Virus record (IMG/VR): IMGVR_UViG_3300025168_000043
Coordinates: 32,377-96,376 of that record
Reading direction: 5' to 3' (one strand)
DNA: 64,000 nt
From: a virus
Position numbers and translations under genes: made by a program. How positions within the stretch are numbered: position 1 is the first letter of the stretch; the number at the start of each line of letters is the position of its first letter. The notes beneath the pieces were generated by a model, which saw only the letters and a list, made by a program, of their open reading frames with translations, did no database searches and was not told the origin of the DNA. This document shows positions 28,398 to 50,294 of the stretch, piece after piece.

Positions 28398-29690
28398 ATG
28401 CCTCTTTATAAGTTTGGGGCCGGGGATGTATTTTACAATCAGTTAAGAACATATCCCAGTAGCTCGTTTTATATATATTCGGGTAGCGTTTATTATCAAA
28501 ACAAGTCAACCGAAGTGGGCTCCACTGTTGCAAACGTCAATGGTGTCCCTATTGGCAACGTGAGCTTGTTTGAGCTTAATGTTGACCGCGCCGCAACCTC
28601 TACTGGCAGAATCATCGGTTTATCCTCATCTGTTGGTACACAAAACGTTGTGGATAACGGAACAATATATCCTTTCATAGAAAAAGGGTTATCCAAAGTA
28701 GGCTTCAAAGGTCTTACAAGAAAACAGTTTATCAACGACTATGCCCAAGGCGACGTTATAACCGGCTCCTATTTTATGTCTTCCAGCATAACAAGAAGAT
28801 TGTATGCCTCAACCGCTGGTTTTAATGATACAAATAAAGACGGTGCTGCCTTGCGAAACAGTCTAGATTTTGCAAAACGATTAGGTCCGCACTATAACTT
28901 CCCATCGGGGTCTTCAGCAATTTTTACTAATGTTATTTATATCCCTTCTATTTTTTACGGATCAGAGATTAAGAAAGGCACTGTAGATCTTAAGTTTTAT
29001 ATCACAGGTACTCTTGTTGCCCACTGCCGAGACTCAAGATATGACGGCGCCCTTATTATGCAAGGAGATGCTGATTCTGCTCACTCCACACGCGCAACTG
29101 ATGGTTTGACAGTTGGGTGCGTACTATATAACGAAGGCGCAATAATATTGACCAGTTCCGCCCGTATTTCGGATTTAGCATCTAGTCCAAATATTAAAGC
29201 ATATTCTAATAGAACAAACACCACAACGTCAGATGCAGGTGGAAAATATACTTGGGAGCATTTTGGCCTTGGCTTACCCCAAGGTAATGACACATCATTA
29301 GAGCGCCTAACTACGCAAGCCTTTTTACAAAGCGCATCCTTTGGTTTAGAGTTCGCAGGCACCCACAAAATCCCAACCGTCACAATGCTTGCCAATGCAA
29401 ACCGAGGCGAGCTAAACTATACAAATAATCCAACGTATATTGAGTTCGGCCAAACAACTTACAACCCAGTAACAAGTTCTACATTCTTTGGCGAACAGCA
29501 GTTGAATATCAAGAATATTCACTCTTCTTCCTATTCGGATCCTACTGGAAGCCTAAAGAAAACCACATATATTACAAAGATTGGTATTTACGATGATAAG
29601 AAAAAACTTATTGGTATTGCATCTGTTGCCAAGCCTGTCAAGAAAACTGAAGATAGAGACTTGACATTTAAAATAAAACTTGACATCTAA
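28398..29690 (+). CDS. Tail fibre/appendage-like protein, paralogue B
   Basis: This 430-residue protein repeats the plan of the gene before it: ELNYTNNPTYIEFG matches FNYSSNPTYLSGS, and the end YITKIGIYDDKKKLIGIASV, then FKIKLDI, matches the end of paralogue A. Similarity is weaker in the N-terminal half, as expected if that half anchors or binds differently. A strong AGGAGGTG ribosome site lies 11 bases upstream of the start. The last codons overlap the -35 box of the next promoter. A tail-surface role is inferred. Confidence 0.78.
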   Translation: MPLYKFGAGDVFYNQLRTYPSSSFYIYSGSVYYQNKSTEVGSTVANVNGVPIGNVSLFELNVDRAATSTGRIIGLSSSVGTQNVVDNGTIYPFIEKGLSKVGFKGLTRKQFINDYAQGDVITGSYFMSSSITRRLYASTAGFNDTNKDGAALRNSLDFAKRLGPHYNFPSGSSAIFTNVIYIPSIFYGSEIKKGTVDLKFYITGTLVAHCRDSRYDGALIMQGDADSAHSTRATDGLTVGCVLYNEGAIILTSSARISDLASSPNIKAYSNRTNTTTSDAGGKYTWEHFGLGLPQGNDTSLERLTTQAFLQSASFGLEFAGTHKIPTVTMLANANRGELNYTNNPTYIEFGQTTYNPVTSSTFFGEQQLNIKNIHSSSYSDPTGSLKKTTYITKIGIYDDKKKLIGIASVAKPVKKTEDRDLTFKIKLDI

Positions 29691-29708
29691 ATATAATCGT
29701 GTTATAAT
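29680..29708 (+). promoter_or_regulatory. Consensus sigma-70 promoter (early type)
   Basis: TTGACA at 29680-29685 and TATAAT at 29703-29708 are both perfect, with an exact 17-base spacer. The -35 box lies inside the end of the fibre gene. The ATG of the next gene begins only six bases after the -10 box, where transcription should start, so the message is predicted to be leaderless or nearly so. The stretch GTGTTATAATA is shared with the promoter at 51097. Confidence 0.85.
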
Positions 29709-29713
29709 ATAGT

Positions 29714-30241
29714 ATGATACTTGGTTTAGACATTTCCACAAGCATTACTGGATACACTCTCCTAGACGGAGATAAGATAATCCTTAATGGTGCTTGGGAC
29801 ACAAGAAAATACAAAGACTTTTTTAAAAAGGTCGTTCATGTTAGGGACGGCCTTGAAATTATAAGGAAAGAATATGGAACACGGATTACAGCAGTTTACA
29901 TCGAGCAGTCGCTCCAATCATTCAGGTCAGGGTTTTCGTCTGCAAAAACTCTCTCCACTCTTTCTCGTTTTAATGGCATCGTCTCTTGGTTGGTTTTTGA
30001 TCAATACAAAATCACGCCTGAATACCTCGCGGCTACGTCTGCCAGAAAACTTTGTGGCATCAAAGTTCCCCGAGGACAAAAGGCAAAACAAGTTGTTTTA
30101 AACTTTTTGGTTGACAACGAGCCTGCTTTCGTGTTAGAATATACTCGTAACGGTAATCCTAAGCCCGAGTGCTACGATAAAGCAGACTCAATAGTGATTG
30201 CCAAGGCGGGGGCCATATGCGAGCAGAAAAACTCAAAATAA
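29714..30241 (+). CDS. RuvC-like Holliday junction resolvase
   Basis: This 175-residue protein has the RNase H-like fold of RuvC: ILGLDISTSITGY with catalytic Asp6, VYIEQSL with Glu64, and YDKADS with Asp155 and Asp158, spaced as in bacterial RuvC (173 residues in E. coli). RuvC enzymes cut four-way DNA junctions; in a phage this resolves branched replicative DNA before packaging, the role that endonuclease VII has in T4. The start is set by the first beta strand beginning at residue 2, which leaves no room for a later ATG. The end overlaps the primase gene by 25 bases, so the two are coupled. Confidence 0.85.
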   Translation: MILGLDISTSITGYTLLDGDKIILNGAWDTRKYKDFFKKVVHVRDGLEIIRKEYGTRITAVYIEQSLQSFRSGFSSAKTLSTLSRFNGIVSWLVFDQYKITPEYLAATSARKLCGIKVPRGQKAKQVVLNFLVDNEPAFVLEYTRNGNPKPECYDKADSIVIAKAGAICEQKNSK

Positions 30242-31146
30242 TAAAGAATGTTCTTGGACGAGGTTACCAGTCTGGTGATGAACACCTATTCGGCTGTCCG
30301 TTCTGTGGTCATCATAAGAAGAAGATGTCCGTTAATGTGGACAAATCTGTGTTCAAGTGTTGGATTTGTGACAAGTCAGGCCGTGATCTAGGCTACATTG
30401 TCCGCAAGTTTGGAACCAGAGAAGATCGTGACGAATGGTCCAAGTATGACGACCGTGTTGAGATCACAGATTTTGACTTCTTATTTGCGGAGCCTGAAGC
30501 CCCTTCTGAGCAACGCGTTGATTTACCCGAGCAGTTAGTCAGCTTAACGGGCAAGACGCCTTCTGTGGCCTCACAGATAGCTTTAAACTACTTATCAAAG
30601 CGTGGGATCACAAGAGACGACATCCTCAAATGGAAAATCGGTTATTGTCCTGACGGAGAGTATGCTGGTCGTGTGGTGGTGCCATCGTTTAACGAGAACG
30701 GCTATGCAAACTATTTTATTGCACGCTCATACGGCCAAGCTTGGCCAAGATACAAGAACCCACCTGCCTCCCGTGACATTATTTTCAATGAACTGTATGT
30801 AAATTGGGACGAGGACATAATTATAGTAGAGGGCGTCTTTGATGCCATAAAGGCTGGTAATGCAATTCCTCTTCTTGGATCAACGCTTCGCGAGAACTCT
30901 GCTCTTTTTCAAACCATTGTTAAAAGTGGGAATAGGGTGTTTCTGGCTTTGGATGAAGATGCATCCAAAAAAGCACGCAGCATTGCTCGCTTATTACTCA
31001 AGTATGGGGTAGAAGTTGGCCAGATAGATACATCTGGTGTCGAGGATGTCGGAGAGATGTCAAAAGAAGAATTTAAGCACAGGAAAAACAACGCGGCGAT
31101 TATAGAGAAAGACAACTATTTATTGCAAAGGCTTTTTGCCGTTTAA
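30217..31146 (+). CDS. DNA primase (zinc finger plus TOPRIM)
   Basis: This 309-residue protein has an N-terminal zinc finger with Cys27, Cys30, Cys48 and Cys51 (CPFC and CWIC), as in CHC2-type primases. The centre has the RNA polymerase core, and a TOPRIM fold follows with EGVFDAI at about residue 207 and LALDEDAS at about 243, which bind the metal ions. It makes RNA primers for lagging-strand synthesis. No helicase domain is attached, so a separate helicase should exist elsewhere in the genome. T4 gp61 (342 residues) is the functional analogue. It shares the sigma-70 transcript with the RuvC-like gene. Confidence 0.88.
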   Translation: MRAEKLKIIKNVLGRGYQSGDEHLFGCPFCGHHKKKMSVNVDKSVFKCWICDKSGRDLGYIVRKFGTREDRDEWSKYDDRVEITDFDFLFAEPEAPSEQRVDLPEQLVSLTGKTPSVASQIALNYLSKRGITRDDILKWKIGYCPDGEYAGRVVVPSFNENGYANYFIARSYGQAWPRYKNPPASRDIIFNELYVNWDEDIIIVEGVFDAIKAGNAIPLLGSTLRENSALFQTIVKSGNRVFLALDEDASKKARSIARLLLKYGVEVGQIDTSGVEDVGEMSKEEFKHRKNNAAIIEKDNYLLQRLFAV

Positions 31147-31158
31147 AGGAATAATGTT

Positions 31159-31413
31159 ATGAAAGTGACTCGGAAACAACTAAAACAGATTATCAAGGAA
31201 GAGTTAGAAGCTTCATTGGTGCAAGAAGCAGAAGGTGAGACGCCTCAAGATGTGGCTGATCGGCTCAAGAATATACCCGCCAGCTTTAGAATGAGTGTCC
31301 TAAACGACTTCCGCAACATGGCTGATGGTGACACAGAGATGGCAGAGTTCTATCCTCACGTTAAAGATCTTGCTGCTTTCGGCAAAGAAGTGCTACGATT
31401 GTTGGGCGCGTAA
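31159..31413 (+). CDS. Small protein with capsid-targeting-like N terminus (1 of 6)
   Basis: This 84-residue protein begins MKVTRKQLKQIIKEEL, with Ile12-Lys13-Glu14 in the [L/I]-x-E form cut by T4-type prohead proteases. The rest is helical and acidic, with no enzyme motif. It is the first of six consecutive genes with such a start, and it follows the primase after 12 bases. I infer an internal head protein carried into the capsid and trimmed by the protease encoded at 45646. The remaining body is too short to suggest a function. Confidence 0.75.
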   Translation: MKVTRKQLKQIIKEELEASLVQEAEGETPQDVADRLKNIPASFRMSVLNDFRNMADGDTEMAEFYPHVKDLAAFGKEVLRLLGA

Positions 31414-31415
31414 AG

Positions 31416-31913
31416 ATGAAAACCACCAGATCTCAGCTAAGACAAATCATCAAAGAAGAAATAAACAGTATGCTGAACCGGCCAAGAACCGCAGAGCAGT
31501 TTCTGAAAATGATCAAGTCTCAGTTCAGGCTCGCGGGAACACGAAAAACTCTTGAAACGATGGCTAAATACTATGACGCAATGATTAAAGCCGCAGCCGA
31601 AAGAGCACCACTCAAGCCCAGTGACCCAAAAGAGATCGCAGCAGAGATTGGCATTGGACAGGATAGTCCTTATCTACAGTGGACAACCTTTCATCTAAAT
31701 AAGCTTCAGCAAGTACCTAGAGAGGCTTACGAAATGCTGCCCGCAAGTGATGAACTCACTGCTATGCATTATGACCGTCTCACAATAAAAGATAAAAAGC
31801 GCGCAGACCGAGATGCAGAGTTATCTCGCCCACGGTCACCGGAAGAGAAAGAAGCCGCTGCTGCCAAGTTCGGCCAAGATATGGCCGCAGGAAAATACGG
31901 TCCACTGGACTAA
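31416..31913 (+). CDS. Small protein with capsid-targeting-like N terminus (2 of 6)
   Basis: This 165-residue protein begins MKTTRSQLRQIIKEEI, again with Ile-Lys-Glu at residues 12-14. The mature part is helical and basic-acidic mixed; near residue 150 is EKEAAAAKFGQDMAAGKYGP. The gap to the previous stop is 2 bases. The body shows no recognised domain. The shared leader with unrelated bodies argues for a sorting signal instead of a common function. Confidence 0.78.
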   Translation: MKTTRSQLRQIIKEEINSMLNRPRTAEQFLKMIKSQFRLAGTRKTLETMAKYYDAMIKAAAERAPLKPSDPKEIAAEIGIGQDSPYLQWTTFHLNKLQQVPREAYEMLPASDELTAMHYDRLTIKDKKRADRDAELSRPRSPEEKEAAAAKFGQDMAAGKYGPLD

Positions 31914-31925
31914 GGAATCATATCG

Positions 31926-32678
31926 ATGAAAATCACCAAAAAACTTTTAGAGCAAATGATTGAGGAAGCAGCATCGGAGTATGTCTACGGTATTAAAAAT
32001 CCCGGTCGTGTTGCCAACCAATACAAAATAAAGACAATCAAGAAAGTTATCTTTGAAGAGTTGTCCACAAACCTTAACGAAGATGGCCACGAAGACACAT
32101 CCTCAGCAATAAGAAAGTTGAAGACTTCTATTGAAGACGCAGGAGAAATCCTACAAGGTCTCCAAGCACACCAAGGAGATCTTCCCTCTTGGTGGATGGG
32201 CAAAGTAACTATCGCTGCTGACTATCTTAACAAAGCCAGAGACTACTTCCTTGTTTCCGGTGATGTGATGCAAGAAGAAGAGTTGGACGAGCGATGTCAA
32301 AAAGGTTATAAAACCCACGACACCCAAAAAACAAAACAAATGTTTGGAAAGACTTACCGCAACTGTGTAAAAGCAGAGGGTATGGAAGAGGATGCGATGG
32401 ACGAGATCTTTGGCCTTACCAATAATATCTCCTCTAACATTCTACATCTAAGCAAAGAAGACCGAGCACTTATTGAGCGTGACCTCGAAGAGATCAGAGA
32501 GTTGGCGCAAATGGAAGTGATGGACGAGCGCAAACTAAAACCGACCGAAAAGAAGAAACTTAAACGACTTGAAAAAGAAGTTCCCAAAAAAGACTTTACT
32601 GACCAGTATGGAAAGGAAGGCGAATCTATTTACTATGCCACATTAACTAAAATGGCGAAAAAGGGCAAGAAGAAATGA
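31926..32678 (+). CDS. Virion-associated-like protein with capsid-targeting-like N terminus (3 of 6)
   Basis: This 250-residue protein begins MKITKKLLEQMIEEAA, with Ile12-Glu13-Glu14 then Ala15, close to the T4 cleavage context. A second run at residues 36-48 (IKTIKKVIFEEL) repeats the pattern. Residues about 80-105 (LPSWWMGKVTIAADYLNKARD) and 124-150 (CQKGYKTHDTQKTKQMFGK, then YRNCVK) resemble short motifs that I have met in virion proteins of marine T4-like phages. The C terminus is Lys-rich (KMAKKGKKK), which could contact DNA. It overlaps the next start by 4 bases (ATGA). Function unknown. Confidence 0.75.
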   Translation: MKITKKLLEQMIEEAASEYVYGIKNPGRVANQYKIKTIKKVIFEELSTNLNEDGHEDTSSAIRKLKTSIEDAGEILQGLQAHQGDLPSWWMGKVTIAADYLNKARDYFLVSGDVMQEEELDERCQKGYKTHDTQKTKQMFGKTYRNCVKAEGMEEDAMDEIFGLTNNISSNILHLSKEDRALIERDLEEIRELAQMEVMDERKLKPTEKKKLKRLEKEVPKKDFTDQYGKEGESIYYATLTKMAKKGKKK

Positions 32679-33307
32679 AAATTACCAGAGAAAAACTAAA
32701 GCAAATCATCAAGGAAGAACTTGAAACTGCTCTTAATGAACAAACGCCCGCATATTATCAAGCCGGCAAGATTGGCGCAGGTATACCCGGCATTTTTAAA
32801 CGCCTTAGCCCCGTTCCGGACTATCTGGTACAAAGCTATAAAGGAAAAAAGAAAGTCTATAACACGAATAATGGAAATATTGTGGCATTAGATGATAGGG
32901 GCATTCCTTTTGTTTCATATGCTGATGAGATGGAGAAGAACCCCAATGCGGACTACCAATTCGCGATAGATACGCTTAAAAAAAATGGCTATGTAGAAGC
33001 TTCTCTAAGTGTCCCTATGTCTCCGGCAAATCTTGATGCACTCACTCTCGGAACTATTAAAGGGGAAGAGGTCGATCGTGGCTATGTACAAAGAGCGCGC
33101 GCCAACTTTATGAATCAGGACAAAGATATCCCCCGGATTAAGCAAGTCATCGGCAAGAGAGAACTGTCAGATCCAAGTATGCCTAACTGGGACCCCAGCA
33201 AAAATCAAATAGTTTACTTGGGATCACGGACACTTAGTTCCGGAGGTCGGGAAATTTATTTTAAGACATCAAATACTCACAAGTATTATAAAGCATTGGC
33301 CAGATAA
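32675..33307 (+). CDS. Small protein with capsid-targeting-like N terminus (4 of 6)
   Basis: This 210-residue protein begins MKITREKLKQIIKEEL, with Ile-Lys-Glu at 12-14. The body is beta-rich and basic, quite unlike the helical bodies of the other members (VQSYKGKKKVYNTNNGNIVA, then YLGSRTLSSGGREIYF). It is translationally coupled to the gene before it by an ATGA overlap. No family is recognised. Confidence 0.75.
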   Translation: MKITREKLKQIIKEELETALNEQTPAYYQAGKIGAGIPGIFKRLSPVPDYLVQSYKGKKKVYNTNNGNIVALDDRGIPFVSYADEMEKNPNADYQFAIDTLKKNGYVEASLSVPMSPANLDALTLGTIKGEEVDRGYVQRARANFMNQDKDIPRIKQVIGKRELSDPSMPNWDPSKNQIVYLGSRTLSSGGREIYFKTSNTHKYYKALAR

Positions 33308-33320
33308 AGGAAATAATATT

Positions 33321-33857
33321 ATGAAAACCACTAAACAACAACTTAGACAAATCATCAAAGAAGAGTTAGAGGTCGTCCTCACAAACGAGGAGGCAGGCGA
33401 ACTCTTTGGCGAAGGCGTTGAAGCTCAGTTAGAAGAACAAGAGTTGAATGAAGACCTTGGTCAACTAGCTAATATGCTTGGCTCAAATCCTGAAGAACTA
33501 ATGATTGTACTCAAAGGCCTTGGTCTCACTGCTGCAAACATCGGAGTCCCAGCAGCCGCCGGCGGAGTTTTGTATAAAATTATAGATATGATAAGGGATT
33601 ACCGGGAACGAAAAGCAGAGCCCGAAGGCGAGCAAATGATGGAGCAAGAAAAGGTTGCTGGTGATGTCGCCCGCGTTGGCAAAAAGCTTGGTGGTGTTCA
33701 AGGTCTTGAAGCTCTTTTGGCAAGCATCAACAATCGTGATAAGTTTGAGGCTGTTTTAGCACAGTTTATTCAGATGGTTGCTAAAGAAAGACTTCAGCCC
33801 AACGATGTTAAAATGGGTGTTCGTAACGTTGCAGCAACGATTCTAAAAGGCAAGTAA
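33321..33857 (+). CDS. Small protein with capsid-targeting-like N terminus and one hydrophobic segment (5 of 6)
   Basis: This 178-residue protein begins MKTTKQQLRQIIKEEL, with Ile-Lys-Glu at 12-14. An acidic Glu-rich part follows (residues 20-50), then a hydrophobic Gly/Ala-rich segment at about 70-93 (LTAANIGVPAAAGGVLYKII) that may enter a membrane or pack in a helical bundle. The C-terminal half is a helical domain (LGGVQGLEALLASINN). A head-carried protein that meets the host membrane on injection is one reading, but only a guess. Confidence 0.72.
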   Translation: MKTTKQQLRQIIKEELEVVLTNEEAGELFGEGVEAQLEEQELNEDLGQLANMLGSNPEELMIVLKGLGLTAANIGVPAAAGGVLYKIIDMIRDYRERKAEPEGEQMMEQEKVAGDVARVGKKLGGVQGLEALLASINNRDKFEAVLAQFIQMVAKERLQPNDVKMGVRNVAATILKGK

Positions 33858-34325
33858 ATGAAAGACCTTATGGAAGGCTGGCGTGGATATCTTTCAGAAC
33901 AAGAGGAAGAAGTCGGTGACCCAAAGGGGATAGAGACGTTTGAAGATCTTAAGAAACTTTTAAGATCTATTGAACTTAAAAGAAAGGGCGGCGCCGTTGG
34001 CAAGAAAGCACTTAGTTTTGCTGCGTCTCTTATACCGGGTGGATCAGCAGCAAAAGAGTTGTTTGATAATGCGAAGGATGTTAAAGAATTCTTACAAGAT
34101 TTGTATACAGCAGATGATAACTTTAAAACACAAACTAGGCTTGACACCCTGAACATTGATGATAATGTTTCAAAAATTGTTGATGATCAAGTAGAGGCAG
34201 CATTTCTTAAAGTATTGCCAAATTTAATCGCAGATAAAACTGGACCTATTGGTGATTTTAACATTACTAAAGAATTGCAAGTTTTTCTAGCATCCAAATT
34301 TAATAATACAACAGTTAAAAAATAA
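33858..34325 (+). CDS. Small protein with variant capsid-targeting-like N terminus (6 of 6)
   Basis: This 155-residue protein starts on the base after the previous stop. Its N terminus is different in wording, MKDLMEGWRGYLSEQEE, but Leu12-Ser13-Glu14 puts an [L/I]-x-E site at the same residue as in the five genes before it. The body is helical with an Ala/Gly-rich stretch at 45-65 (KKALSFAASLIPGGSAAK). It ends the unit; the next sigma-70 promoter begins 3 bases after the stop. Confidence 0.72.
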   Translation: MKDLMEGWRGYLSEQEEEVGDPKGIETFEDLKKLLRSIELKRKGGAVGKKALSFAASLIPGGSAAKELFDNAKDVKEFLQDLYTADDNFKTQTRLDTLNIDDNVSKIVDDQVEAAFLKVLPNLIADKTGPIGDFNITKELQVFLASKFNNTTVKK

Positions 34326-34328
34326 TCC

Positions 34329-34357
34329 TTGACAGTGAGCCTTTAGCAGGTTATAAT
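34329..34357 (+). promoter_or_regulatory. Consensus sigma-70 promoter (early type)
   Basis: TTGACA at 34329-34334 and TATAAT at 34352-34357 are perfect, with a 17-base spacer. The flanks AATAATCC before the -35 box and TAGCAGGT before the -10 box recur at 35144, so the two promoters share an origin. The ATG is at 34376 behind a GAGGA ribosome site. Confidence 0.87.
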
Positions 34358-34375: not shown

Positions 34376-35140
34376 ATGTCTAAAAGCTTAGTGGCTTCTA
34401 TTGAAGCTCATGATTGTATTAGGACCACCTATTTTAAAATAAGACTATCTGATGAGGTCTTGGCCGGCCTTCAGGAATACTCAGCTAAAGTTTTATCGTC
34501 TCCAAGCGTGTATGAAGATTATACATATAGGTTAGCCGGCCACATAAAAAAGGGTAAACAATTACAAATTCCTTTAGAAACCAAAGAGACAAAAGATTTA
34601 TTAAAAGTTTTATCCTCAGCCACCATACAATATTATAATAATTATTTATCTCGCGTGATGCCAAATCATGCACAAATACCTAAAGAAGAAAATCCATACG
34701 CTCTCAAGGGTGTAGAGGTTCAAGATCTGTGGTTAAACTCATATTTAGCTGGGGACTATAACCCAATACATAAGCATGGAACTGTTTCTCCTGTTGGGAT
34801 GTCATGTTTTATAGTTGTAAGCGTACCAGATAGTATTAAAAATAAAAAACAATCTCATACTGTGGGTAAATCAGGCGGGATTACTGGAAACGATCATTTT
34901 GATGGACACACTTTACTAAAGTGGGGATATAACTTTGGTAGCGACAACGTATTTGATTCTTTAGAATACTCGCAGCAGGATTATGTAAAGCCGGAAGAGG
35001 GTATGATATACTTATTTCCACGATGGATGGATCATATGGTGTGTCCATTCCAAGGTCCGGGGATTAGAGTGACAATGGCCGCTAACATTAGTATATGGAC
35101 AGATAGATATTATAAAATATATAATAATTCTAGTGAATAA
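34376..35140 (+). CDS. Putative 2OG-Fe(II) oxygenase-like protein
   Basis: This 254-residue protein has the pattern of the double-stranded beta-helix oxygenases common in marine phages: NPIHKHG with His132 and His134, a core strand MSCFIVVSVP, then FPRWMDHMV with His220, and GIRVTMAANI with Arg231 as the likely 2-oxoglutarate contact. Such enzymes hydroxylate proteins or nucleic acids using Fe(II), oxygen and 2-oxoglutarate. The substrate is unknown. It stands alone between two promoters, which suggests early independent expression. The metal triad is inferred by pattern and not aligned; the first acidic ligand is replaced by a second His in my reading, so activity is uncertain. Confidence 0.65.
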   Translation: MSKSLVASIEAHDCIRTTYFKIRLSDEVLAGLQEYSAKVLSSPSVYEDYTYRLAGHIKKGKQLQIPLETKETKDLLKVLSSATIQYYNNYLSRVMPNHAQIPKEENPYALKGVEVQDLWLNSYLAGDYNPIHKHGTVSPVGMSCFIVVSVPDSIKNKKQSHTVGKSGGITGNDHFDGHTLLKWGYNFGSDNVFDSLEYSQQDYVKPEEGMIYLFPRWMDHMVCPFQGPGIRVTMAANISIWTDRYYKIYNNSSE

Positions 35141-45622: not shown

Positions 45623-45645
45623 CTAAATGTCGTTTGGAGATAACA

Positions 45646-46260
45646 ATGGGAAAAACACTTTTAAGAGAATATTACGCACTTTGTGATGGTGGTGTCTGTC
45701 AAGACATGCTAACCGAGGATGAGAAGAAACTTATGTCCGCTGGCAAGAAGTTTTTTATGACCGGTTGTATGCAGAAGTTTGACACACCAAACGGCAACGG
45801 ACGCGTGTATTCCAAAAGTATTCTCCAACGTGAAGTGGAAAACTATTGGAAACTTGTCAAGGAGCGCAGAGCACTTGGCGAGTTAGACCATCCAGATGAT
45901 TCAGTCATCAACTTAAAAAACGCATCTCACCTTGTAACCGATATGTGGTGGGATGGCGAAGCCCTTATGGGTAAGGTTGAAATCCTGAATACTCCTTCAG
46001 GCCAGATTCTTAAACAACTTGCCGAGTCAGGCGTAACATTAGGAATCTCATCCCGAGGCCTTGGTTCTGTCCGCGAAGTCCGTGGCACGACAATGGTTGA
46101 AGATGATTTTCAACTTATCTGCTTTGATTTTGTTTCCGAACCATCTACCCCCGGCGCCTTTATGCAGGTGAAAGAGGGGATGCGAGAGCACAAGGAACCA
46201 AACATTTTCACCAAAGCAGACAAAATAAACAGAATCTTAAATGATATTTTGAGAGATTGA
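45646..46260 (+). CDS. Prohead core protease, gp21-like (peptidase S77)
   Basis: This 204-residue serine protease has the family's two catalytic signatures: GELDHPDD with His82 and GISSRGLGS with Ser135/136, plus the strand FQLICFDFVSEPS near 155-167. T4 gp21 (212 residues) cuts scaffold, capsid and internal proteins after [L/I]-x-E during prohead maturation, then digests itself. The ATG at 45646 follows GGAGATAAC; a TTG four codons earlier overlaps that site and is unlikely. Candidate substrates in this window are the capsid protein (Glu59) and the six small proteins at 31159-34325 (each at Glu14). Confidence 0.93.
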   Translation: MGKTLLREYYALCDGGVCQDMLTEDEKKLMSAGKKFFMTGCMQKFDTPNGNGRVYSKSILQREVENYWKLVKERRALGELDHPDDSVINLKNASHLVTDMWWDGEALMGKVEILNTPSGQILKQLAESGVTLGISSRGLGSVREVRGTTMVEDDFQLICFDFVSEPSTPGAFMQVKEGMREHKEPNIFTKADKINRILNDILRD

Positions 46261-46261
46261 G

Positions 46262-46690
46262 ATGAAAAGAACAGAACTTAAAAAACTAATAAAACCATTA
46301 GTGAAAGAATGCGTCCAAGAAACCATTCTAAACGATGGCCTCTTATCTAACATCGTATCAGAAGTTATGCAAGGGATGGGCAACCAGTTCCTTGTGGAAA
46401 ATAAAGAACAGATTGTTTCTACAATGTCTAATGAAAACAGTGTCCAAATAGAACAGTTGAAAGAAAGACAAAATGAAACAAGAAAACGCCTACTTGACGA
46501 GATAGGTAAAGAAACTTATAACGGAGTGGACCTTTTTGAAGGTACAACACCTATCAAAGATAGCGGAGAATCATCAATAATGAGGCAAGCAAGTCCGCTG
46601 TCCGGACAAGCCCCTGACGATTCTGGAGTGGATATTTCATCTATTGTAGCGTTAGGTGGAAAAAATTGGAAAGCTTTAACAAGTAACTAA
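46262..46690 (+). CDS. Helical head-assembly protein, unknown
   Basis: This 142-residue protein starts 1 base after the protease stop. Its N terminus MKRTELKKLIKPLVKECVQE recalls the small-protein leaders at 31159-33321 but has no [L/I]-x-E at residues 12-14. A helical middle (SNENSVQIEQLKERQNETRK) is followed by a disordered part and an end GGKNWKALTSN. A core or scaffold accessory protein is a fair guess. A late promoter motif follows directly. Confidence 0.65.
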   Translation: MKRTELKKLIKPLVKECVQETILNDGLLSNIVSEVMQGMGNQFLVENKEQIVSTMSNENSVQIEQLKERQNETRKRLLDEIGKETYNGVDLFEGTTPIKDSGESSIMRQASPLSGQAPDDSGVDISSIVALGGKNWKALTSN

Positions 46691-47532: not shown

Positions 47533-48513
47533 ATGCCAACACTCCTAGAACAAGCTATTATCGACGCAGAAGAACTTAGAGAGGCCGCGTTAAAGAACGC
47601 CGAGTCTACTATTCTGGAAAAGTACAACAACGAAGTAAAGAATGTTGTTGAAACTCTTCTGGAACAAGAAGAAGAAATGGAAATGATGGGCGCGATGGAA
47701 GAGCCCGCCTTCGCTGCTGCTGAAGAAGAAGAGATGTGTCCTTGTCCTGACAAGGAAGAAGAAGAAATGGTTTCTTTTAGCTTAGAAGATCTTAAGAATA
47801 TGGCCGACGACCTAGAAGGCACTTCCGTTATGGGTGAGCCAGAAAGTCAAGAAGATCTTATGACCGGTCTTGGAATGGAGCCCGACGACGAAGACGAGAC
47901 TCTTCCCCTCCAAGAGGAGTTTGAGTTGACTGAGGAAGATGTTGAACTCGATGAAGAGATGATTAAAGAACTCGTTGAGGAATTAGTTGTTGATGTGATG
48001 CCTGTTAAAACTGGCTGGCTCGCAACCCCACAAGGTGAAATGCAATACGCAGAAGAATTAGAATTGGCTAGATTGGCCGGCACGGAGGCCCAAGAGCAAA
48101 TGAAAGCTCTTAAGGATGCCCACGACCGTCTAACCATTACAAACGAATCTTTGACAAGCGACAATAGAAAGCTTGTTGGGGGCATTTTAGCATTGAAAGA
48201 GAAGGTTGAAGAAACCCTCTTGGAAAATGCGAAACTTCTCTATATGAATCAGGCATTGAATAGTGCCTCCCTGAATGAGCGACAAAGGTCAAACGTTGTC
48301 GAGTCTATTCGCAAGGCTGATTCTGTTGAAGAGGCGAAGGTTATATATGAAACCCTTCAAAGCGCAGCGGGCGACTCTACTCGTAGAAAGCCAAAATCGT
48401 TGAGCGAAGCAATCAGTAGGCCTTCATCGACATTGCCAAGACGAAGAAAAGAAAGAGCGCAAGGGGATTCCGTTGCGAAGGATCGATTCCAAATTTTGGC
48501 AGGACTTAAATGA
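47533..48513 (+). CDS. Prohead scaffold/core protein, gp22-like
   Basis: This 326-residue protein lies between the protease and the capsid gene as T4 gp22 does. It is strongly acidic, with Glu runs at about 45-85 and 120-155, and largely helical with coiled coil at 190-265. The last 50 residues turn basic (STRRKPKSLSEA, then LPRRRKERAQGDS), as expected for contact with the capsid shell. Several [L/I]-x-E sites would let the prohead protease remove it. The call is by place and composition, since scaffold sequences vary greatly. Confidence 0.8.
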   Translation: MPTLLEQAIIDAEELREAALKNAESTILEKYNNEVKNVVETLLEQEEEMEMMGAMEEPAFAAAEEEEMCPCPDKEEEEMVSFSLEDLKNMADDLEGTSVMGEPESQEDLMTGLGMEPDDEDETLPLQEEFELTEEDVELDEEMIKELVEELVVDVMPVKTGWLATPQGEMQYAEELELARLAGTEAQEQMKALKDAHDRLTITNESLTSDNRKLVGGILALKEKVEETLLENAKLLYMNQALNSASLNERQRSNVVESIRKADSVEEAKVIYETLQSAAGDSTRRKPKSLSEAISRPSSTLPRRRKERAQGDSVAKDRFQILAGLK

Positions 48514-48539: not shown

Positions 48540-48550
48540 AAGGAGGTGAT
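48540..48550 (+). promoter_or_regulatory. Extended Shine-Dalgarno of the capsid gene
   Basis: AAGGAGGTGAT matches eleven consecutive bases of the complement of the usual 16S rRNA 3' end. It sits 8 bases (from GGAGG) before the ATG at 48555, and rules out the in-frame GTG at 48546 as the start because that codon lies within it. Confidence 0.85.
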
Positions 48551-48554
48551 TAAA

Positions 48555-50294
48555 ATGTCAATATTAAATAAATTAACTGAAGGAATCGTGAACCGCGATC
48601 TCCGTCAGGAAGGCGATGCCCTTATCTCTAAATGGGAAAAGACCGGTCTCCTCGAAGGACTCAATAATGATTCTTCGAAGAACGGAATGGCCCGACTTCT
48701 TGAAAATCAAGCCAAGCAGCTTCTGAAAGAGGCTTCTTCTATGGCAGCAGGCGATGTGGAAGGTTTTGCTTCCGTCGCATTCCCGCTCGTTCGCCGCGTG
48801 TTCGGTGGTCTTTTGGCCAACGATCTCGTTAGTGTTCAGCCGATGAGTCTCCCAAGTGGTCTCATCTTCTTCATGGACTTCACTTACAGTGACAGTCGTC
48901 TCGGTCTTACCGATGGTGAGTCTGTCTACGGTGGTGGTGTTGTGGCTAAGGGCATCCAAACAGGTGTCACGGATGTTAAGGAAAGTGGTGGTGGTTTCTA
49001 CAACCTTGCCAATGCTTACTCGCATCCTACTGCCTCTGTGACTGTCCAGATGGACAATGTTGTTGTCGCCGGTTCAACCGTTGCGGCTACCACTACAGAT
49101 GCAAACAAGAAGCTGATTCGTTTCGACCCGGACATTCTTGGTGATAGTACAAACCGTATTGCTGTTTTCAAAGGCGACAATGTTGTTGGTACTGATCTTC
49201 CAAATCTCAACAGAGATATGGTGACTGCAATCGAGGCAACGGCTGGTACGTTCAACCTTGGTAACGGTACTCAAGCTCGTCGTCTGACTTTCATCGATGC
49301 CGATGACAAGTTGAACGTCGTTTTCTTCAGAACTGGTGGCGCTATTACAGATCCAACCAGTACACAGACTCTCGTTCTTAGTTACCCAATTGCCGATAAG
49401 TTCGACAATGGTGGAGCTACTCCGGGTTCTGTGGTCGGTGGCGATCCTTGGGGCCTTGAAGAAGCTACTAATGCTACTCAAGCTTCCTCTGCATCAGGCG
49501 CTGGAGCCAAAGATGTCATCCCTGAGATCGACATTAAGGTGGACTCGGTTGCTGTGACAGCGATGACCAAGAAACTGAAGGCCAAATGGTCGCCAGAACT
49601 CGGTCAAGACTTGAATGCATACCACAACCTCGACGCTGAAGTTGAGTTGACCTCGATCCTGTCGGAGCAAATTGCTCTTGAGATCGATCGTGAGATCGTG
49701 AACGACTTGATCCAAGGTGCAACTGCTGGTACATTCTACTGGTCGCGCTCTCCGGGCCTCTTCGTGAACCGCACAACTGGTGTTGAAATCGGCGCTGCTT
49801 CGGCTGCTCCTGACTTCACTGGTACGGTTTCCGAGTGGTATGAAACCCTCATTGAGACCATCAATGATGTGTCGGCTCGTATTCATGTGAAGACTCTTCG
49901 CGGCGGTGCAAACTTCCTCGTGACCTCACCTGAAGTTGCTAACATCCTTGAGTTCACCGCTGGCTTCCGTGCTAGTGTGACTGCTGACTCCGATCGCGGT
50001 ACCGCAGGTGCAATCAACGTCGGTTCTATCTCTAAGAAGTTCGACATCTATGTCGATCCTTACTTCCCACGGAACGTCGTACTCGTCGGCCGTAAGGGTG
50101 GTAGCTTCCTTGAGTCGGGCTATGTTTACGCTCCGTATGTGCCCCTACAGGTCACGCCAACTATCTTCGGCACCGAGGACTTCGTACCTCGTAAGGGCGT
50201 CTTGACGCGCTACGCCAAGAAGATGGTCCGTCCTGATATGTACGGTCTGGTTATTTGTCGCGGACTCCTTGGTGAAGCTGGTGCAACTAGCTAA
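48555..50294 (+). CDS. Major capsid protein, gp23-like
   Basis: This 579-residue protein has the T4 gp23 layout (521 residues): a helical N-terminal propeptide with LLENQAKQLLKEAS, where Leu57-Lys58-Glu59 then Ala60 matches the T4 cut after Leu-Thr-Glu65. After this comes GFASVAFPLVRRVFGGLLAN and VQPMSLPSGLIFFMDF, typical of the HK97-fold gp23 core. The C terminus has TRYAKKMVRPDMYGLVICRG. The start is fixed by the extended ribosome site. Codons are visibly richer in C- and G-ending forms than those of neighbours, as expected for the most abundant protein. A strong terminator follows. Confidence 0.95.
   Translation: MSILNKLTEGIVNRDLRQEGDALISKWEKTGLLEGLNNDSSKNGMARLLENQAKQLLKEASSMAAGDVEGFASVAFPLVRRVFGGLLANDLVSVQPMSLPSGLIFFMDFTYSDSRLGLTDGESVYGGGVVAKGIQTGVTDVKESGGGFYNLANAYSHPTASVTVQMDNVVVAGSTVAATTTDANKKLIRFDPDILGDSTNRIAVFKGDNVVGTDLPNLNRDMVTAIEATAGTFNLGNGTQARRLTFIDADDKLNVVFFRTGGAITDPTSTQTLVLSYPIADKFDNGGATPGSVVGGDPWGLEEATNATQASSASGAGAKDVIPEIDIKVDSVAVTAMTKKLKAKWSPELGQDLNAYHNLDAEVELTSILSEQIALEIDREIVNDLIQGATAGTFYWSRSPGLFVNRTTGVEIGAASAAPDFTGTVSEWYETLIETINDVSARIHVKTLRGGANFLVTSPEVANILEFTAGFRASVTADSDRGTAGAINVGSISKKFDIYVDPYFPRNVVLVGRKGGSFLESGYVYAPYVPLQVTPTIFGTEDFVPRKGVLTRYAKKMVRPDMYGLVICRGLLGEAGATS

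Follow-up and report, generated by a model that had tools for sequence, protein, structure and literature searches.

The subject of this analysis is a cassette of six consecutive genes (31159-34325, plus strand) in a window of 64,000 nucleotides, which is part of the 96,376-base IMG/VR virus record IMGVR_UViG_3300025168_000043 (positions 32,377 to 96,376), and whose products start with short leaders resembling the capsid-targeting sequence (CTS) of phage T4. The original prediction, made from the letters of the DNA, had placed six adjacent genes here, and all six open reading frames (ORFs) are present. Five of the six starts match MK-x-T-[RK]-x-x-L-x-Q-[IM]-I-[KE]-E, hereafter leader A. With a slash marking candidate junctions, the ORF listing gives MKVTRKQLKQIIKE/ELEASLVQE for gene 1 (31159-31413), MKTTRSQLRQIIKE/EINSML for gene 2 (31416-31913) and MKITKKLLEQMIEE for gene 3 (31926-32678), and together with relatives it gives MKITREKLKQIIKE/ELETALNE/QTP for gene 4 (32675-33307) and MKTTKQQLRQIIKE/ELEVVLTNEE...EQELNE/D for gene 5 (33321-33857). 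Gene 6 (33858-34325) starts with MKDLMEGWRGYLSE/ and was assigned, with the help of homologues, to leader B. An [IL]-x-E ending at residue 14 was found in all six cassette ORFs and in none of the 44 other ORFs listed for the window. The bodies behind the leaders are unrelated, as had been proposed, with no mutual similarity at E≤1e-3 (BLAST, six bodies). The accompanying claim of six related starts held for the five leader-A genes, which are mutually related, and not for the sixth, whose start belongs to another widespread leader family; the cassette really holds two independent leaders rather than six. Pfam and PHROGs gave no convincing family for the six bodies, and the structure models of genes 6 and 4 were too poor for a fold (mean predicted local distance difference test, pLDDT, 49 and 60), the best PDB match of the gene 4 model having E=1.1. 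Scans with the leader patterns found no further A or B leaders in the remaining ~32 kb of the 96-kb record.

The leaders are not a mark of this phage and are widespread in uncultured phages. When a viral collection was scanned with DNA patterns for leaders A and B, which were designed after the data had been seen and applied to mechanically called ORFs on contigs many of which are fragments, leader A (consensus MKITKxQLKQIIKEEL) was found in at least 357 non-redundant proteins and leader B (MKLIMENWRKFLxE) in front of at least 133 non-redundant bodies; these protein counts are lower bounds, and homologous proteins among them are not independent. Conservation in leader A is highest at L8 (349 of the 357 proteins), I11 (317), I12 (341) and E14 (355), while [LI]xE at any single position is expected from composition in about 1.2% of proteins (4.3 of 357). 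A third type, leader D (MNLLREYIRELLxE), was found at three loci, and A, B and D have in common the spacing Phi8-xx-Phi11-Phi12-x-E14, Phi being a hydrophobic residue. In a cellular collection of 84,980 genomes the exact leader-A pattern was present in only 8 stretches, all of them contigs of metagenome-assembled genomes (MAGs). The longest of these, NHDW01000006.1 (305,838 bases; L306/L310/L311), carries 25 leader-A genes together with an S77 protease and, binned as a Methylococcaceae MAG, most likely represents a large phage that was placed among bacterial contigs. Eleven leader genes were also seen on the Halobacteriovorax MAG contig PBIO01000025.1. Leader A was present in 16 of 25 contigs selected for S77 and was carried by none of the random contigs. 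A tblastn search of cultured phages with a 22-residue leader, a kind of short query that is insensitive, returned LR756508.1 only. In the full-text literature outside subscription journals, searches for the leader peptides, for capsid targeting in metagenomes and for N-terminal motifs turned up no paper describing these peptides.

Comparison with relatives indicates, at the level of sequence, that the bodies are exchangeable modules. Homologous bodies carry leader A in one phage and leader B in another in four pairs of loci (L052/L194, L122/L202, L029/L099 and L092/L035). Gene 3 joins two proteins that other phages encode separately, each behind a leader: it contains a second leader-like segment at residues 33-52 (32022-32081), YKIKTIKKVIFEELSTNLNE/DGHED, and two proteins elsewhere (L038/L091) begin directly with a leader ending LQE/DGHED that matches this internal segment. 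The body of gene 4 consists of two modules, each found separately behind type A leaders elsewhere; in a close relative, gene 5 retains its leader and propeptide with the body replaced; and an orthologue of gene 2 retains the leader with a GTG start. Two further families were noted in both states. A DUF5872-like domain (L011:2359, L300:12185, L238, L244, L252) is leader-fused in S77 phages and leaderless in unrelated contigs. Proteins of a second family, which begin with GGNVF, have leader B in uncultured phages (L331, L377, L409) and no leader in phage immuto (106221-107129).

The window encodes a prohead protease of the S77 type (45634-46260, plus strand, ATG start at 45646; PF03420, 1.9e-30; phrog_207, 3.4e-53), as the original prediction had said, in which the His of GELDHP and the Ser of SSRG, taken as the catalytic residues, are conserved with T4 gp21, and a gp23-type major capsid protein (48546-50294, plus strand; PF07068, 4.8e-73; phrog_138, 2.4e-71). 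Whether the leader co-occurs with an S77 protease had been put forward as a check, and it does: S77 was found in 18 of 18 leader-A records of at least 120 kb versus 1 of 4 random records, and in 21 of 23 leader-A records of at least 100 kb versus 2 of 8 random records of that size. In the first set of leader-A records, 29 of 50 had S77, including all those of at least 110 kb. The leader-A records without S77 also lacked gp23 (20 of 20 tested) and therefore appear to be fragments without the head module. For leader B, S77 was found in 9 of 11 records of at least 110 kb, the remaining two being without gp23, and with a single exception, considered below, the S77-negative leader-B records have no gp23; nearly all S77-negative leader records thus seem to be such fragments. 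Moreover, across 35 S77 loci, leader genes peak directly beside S77 and again 6-10 kb upstream, with hardly any in the other structural bins, the comparison bins having been picked after the profile was seen. A full-length homologue of gene 1 (64% identical) lies directly upstream of S77 in L134, and several relatives encode full-length homologues of gene 6, starting with MKLIMENW leaders, upstream of S77; relatives of both genes stand between portal and S77 in other phages, and the window copies stand elsewhere. The first 15 kb of an 85-kb record (L442) encode a protein of 1218 residues in which a B-like start, NIWRNYLTE, precedes a HAD-like motif; the adjoining gene product is NUDIX-like and has leader B. 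Scaffold and capsid genes are near, and S77 was not found nearby.

The original prediction also placed a protease cut after residue 14 in all six proteins. For leader B this is a good candidate: E14 has an information content of 3.57 bits, residue 15 of 0.67 and residue 16 of 0.24 (133 bodies), a sharp drop as expected for a leader ending there. In leader A (357 proteins), conservation is strong to residue 16, weak to residue 22 and at background at residue 23, a second LxE is over-represented 11-20 times at residues 21-22, and 56 proteins, versus 1.04 expected, have the complete heptad a second time at E22. Given this second peak, E14 as the sole cut in type A was not accepted, and a cut near residue 22 (residue 44 in gene 5) is equally plausible. 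The junctions of relatives point both ways: IIQE/VTQGEMEF versus LINE/VTQGEMEF favors E14, and LNE/DGHED versus LQE/DGHED in relatives of gene 3, ALNE/ in gene 4 and ELNE/D at residue 44 in gene 5 favor later sites. Type A leaders may accordingly be cut at E14, at E22 or at both.

T4 IPII and IPIII start with MKTYQEFIAEA, and suppressor mutations of the T4 CTS assign residues 4 and 7 to targeting and residues 8 and 10 to cutting by gp21 (PMC9026906). Aligned on the Glu, these functional positions are the ones conserved in leaders A, B and D (8, 11, 12 and 14), and the heptad is also readable in T4 gp23 (FGSFLTE) and gp24 (INELLRE). In T4, a protein with Asp at position 10 is packaged but stays uncut. 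The leader proteins are thus like T4 IPI, IPII and IPIII in having a short N-terminal leader, unrelated bodies and the spacing Phi-xx-Phi-Phi-x-E with Glu as P1, and in coming from a phage that also encodes an S77 protease and a gp23 capsid; in T-even phages, too, the mature parts vary from phage to phage (PMC9026906). They are unlike them in having several leader families, arrays of up to 25 genes and bodies that are mostly acidic and often enzymes, and in being found mostly in uncultured phages. The exact leader-A pattern is absent from T4, and with only 10-14 residues to compare, shared ancestry is not distinguishable from convergence. In Salmonella phage SPN3US and relatives of phiKZ, many head proteins enter the capsid along with the DNA, and a phage protease trims them after Glu (PMC10052503); those ejection proteins differ in their protease, in their motif and in their mostly long propeptides of 111-254 residues.

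In light of these likenesses, we consider it very probable that the leaders function like the T4 CTS and target otherwise unrelated proteins to the head. From the comparisons we infer core docking, cutting, packaging and injection along the following lines. Each cassette protein would carry a detachable capsid-targeting leader, in five cases of type A (an amphipathic helix of ~22 residues) and in one of the 14-residue type B, and the hydrophobic positions 8, 11 and 12 would mediate docking to the core of the prohead. Once the head is assembled, the S77 protease would cleave behind the Glu of [LI]-x-E, either at E14, at a second site (E22; E44 in gene 5; internal sites in gene 3) or at both, and the freed bodies inside the head would enter the host along with the DNA. 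Since the bodies appear to be exchangeable modules, the cassette may serve as a dock at which host-directed or DNA-packing proteins are loaded. The proposal of a head-packed cassette thus gains support from the S77 link, the A/B body swaps, the T4 spacing and the enzymes among the bodies, and it fares less well in its E14 cut for leader A; our verdict is that this would be a new form of T4-like capsid targeting, on a much larger scale and with more variety.

Several points weigh against capsid targeting. The leaders and S77 may have been inherited together in one clade, and the motif patterns were drawn up after the data had been inspected. One S77-negative leader-B record, an 85-kb fragment, does reach into the head module, ending inside gp23. 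Leader A has a basic character, exceeds the T4 CTS in length and often carries a second site. The internal proteins of T4 are basic (PMC9026906), whereas 61% of the leader bodies are acidic and 17% basic (342 complete bodies). An enrichment of the motif at N termini was sought in the S77 phages RM378, G066, G076 and G085 with a negative outcome in all four; S77 therefore does not imply leaders, and the leader system is, as far as these genomes indicate, an accessory layer on the gp21-gp23 head.

An isolate that has both is Flavobacterium phage immuto (host Flavobacterium sp. LMO8), whose capsid protein places it with the closest named relatives. It has S77 and many leader-like starts, among them MKKSQLRQIIKE/AL, MKKVMGNLADLLLE and leaders ending LLKE or IITE, including those of nucleotidase-like and DUF5872-like proteins. 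The heptad occurs at the N terminus of 14.3% of its proteins versus 4.1% internally (p=6e-5), the corresponding values for random contigs being 3.0% and 2.7%. The leader genes of immuto flank the annotated primase gene, and in the window the cassette follows a primase-like gene.

It is also conceivable, though less likely, that packing and processing do occur but serve to build the head, the proteins being structural core or DNA-condensing components of the gp67/gp68 kind and not host-delivered effectors. The homologues of genes 1 and 6 adjoin S77, which is the site of gp67 and gp68 in T4, so that the neighborhood of these relatives, like their LxE sites, recalls gp67, gp68 and gp22, and many bodies are small and without a known domain. 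However, the family search (Pfam, PHROGs) found no similarity to these T4 proteins, the bodies are variable and exchangeable and form long arrays, and the cassette lies in a sigma-70 unit distant from the head genes. The cargo seen elsewhere bears on the same question. Among several hundred leader bodies, most of them without a family, matches were found to NUDIX (3), GNAT (several), AAA_33/zeta-type kinases, guanylate kinase, 5'-nucleotidase, GDSL, M23 and pentapeptide repeats, and NUDIX, GNAT and kinase domains would be odd for structural parts; this range of enzymes seems to suit delivery into the cell better than a purely structural role. T4 Alt is a head-packed ADP-ribosyltransferase that is processed at its N- and C-terminus and injected with the genome. 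A likeness to Alt is limited to two leader proteins elsewhere (L122 and L073) with weak ART-PolyVal matches below the Pfam cut-off, and there is none in the window.

A helix serving another purpose, such as dimerisation, binding to host RNA polymerase or membrane, or sorting to a phage compartment, with the S77 link due to ancestry, appears improbable. The conservation pattern is indeed that of an amphipathic helix, one is predicted over residues 5-22 in the low-confidence gene 4 model, and the leader phages may all fall within a single broad clade. Against such a helix stand the invariant Glu at the protease P1 position, the conservation that falls straight after it in leader B, the second LxE peak at residues 21-22 in leader A, the exchange with a different leader of equal spacing and the S77 neighborhood. 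That the shared starts are a nucleic-acid element (a translation enhancer or recombination site) with no peptide signal is hardly credible and was rejected on codon variation at invariant residues, six synonymous codons being used at L8 and three each at I11 and I12, and A and B differ in sequence with the same spacing and the GTG-start orthologue keeps the peptide, even if the shared part starts exactly at the start codon, is the sole region common to the genes and has GAA as the E14 codon in 91%.

If capsid targeting is the correct reading, its reach goes beyond this cassette. T4 carries a handful of head-packed effectors, and if the leaders do the same job, uncultured gp23 phages would carry many more. 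We think it fairly probable that these phages use interchangeable N-terminal tags following one rule, Phi-xx-Phi-Phi-x-E, to load up to dozens of enzymes and host-directed proteins per head. This would amount to a large modular protein-delivery system with a cargo list readable from genomes, in which the leader marks, among genes of unknown function, those whose products are first to reach the cell, where anti-defence and host take-over proteins act. The leader may then allow injected cargo to be recognized directly from sequence and supply new targeting peptides, and what was seen long ago in the internal proteins of T-even phages would become a general rule, open to testing, across a large viral clade.

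With regard to the surroundings of the cassette, the two promoters, the RuvC-like and primase-like genes, the scaffold gene and the gene of the small protein named below lie on the plus strand. A perfect sigma-70 type promoter by consensus match (TTGACA-17-TATAAT, 29680-29708) stands upstream of a unit made up of a RuvC-like gene (29714-30241), a primase-like gene (30217-31146), both named from the first reading and from matching position in relatives, and the cassette. The next such promoter (34329-34357) follows downstream of the cassette and precedes a gene (34376-35140) for a putative 2-oxoglutarate/Fe(II) oxygenase, to judge by the look of its sequence. The original prediction had set this sigma-70 unit against the virion genes. 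The sigma-70 side of that claim stands, and the late-promoter contrast was not confirmed, T4-type late promoters (TATAAATA) being not convincingly over-represented (7 versus 3.6 expected). In the head module, a probable scaffold in the gp22 position (47533-48513) is suggested by position and composition. The small protein MKRTELKKLIKPLVKE (46262-46690), which follows S77 in most relatives, starts with MKRTELKKLIKPLVKEC, a start that resembles leader A with an inserted Lys-Pro, and is a candidate core protein with a leader-like start. Finally, the records behind L025 and L082 (242 and 293 kb) each contain two tandem gp23-type capsid genes.

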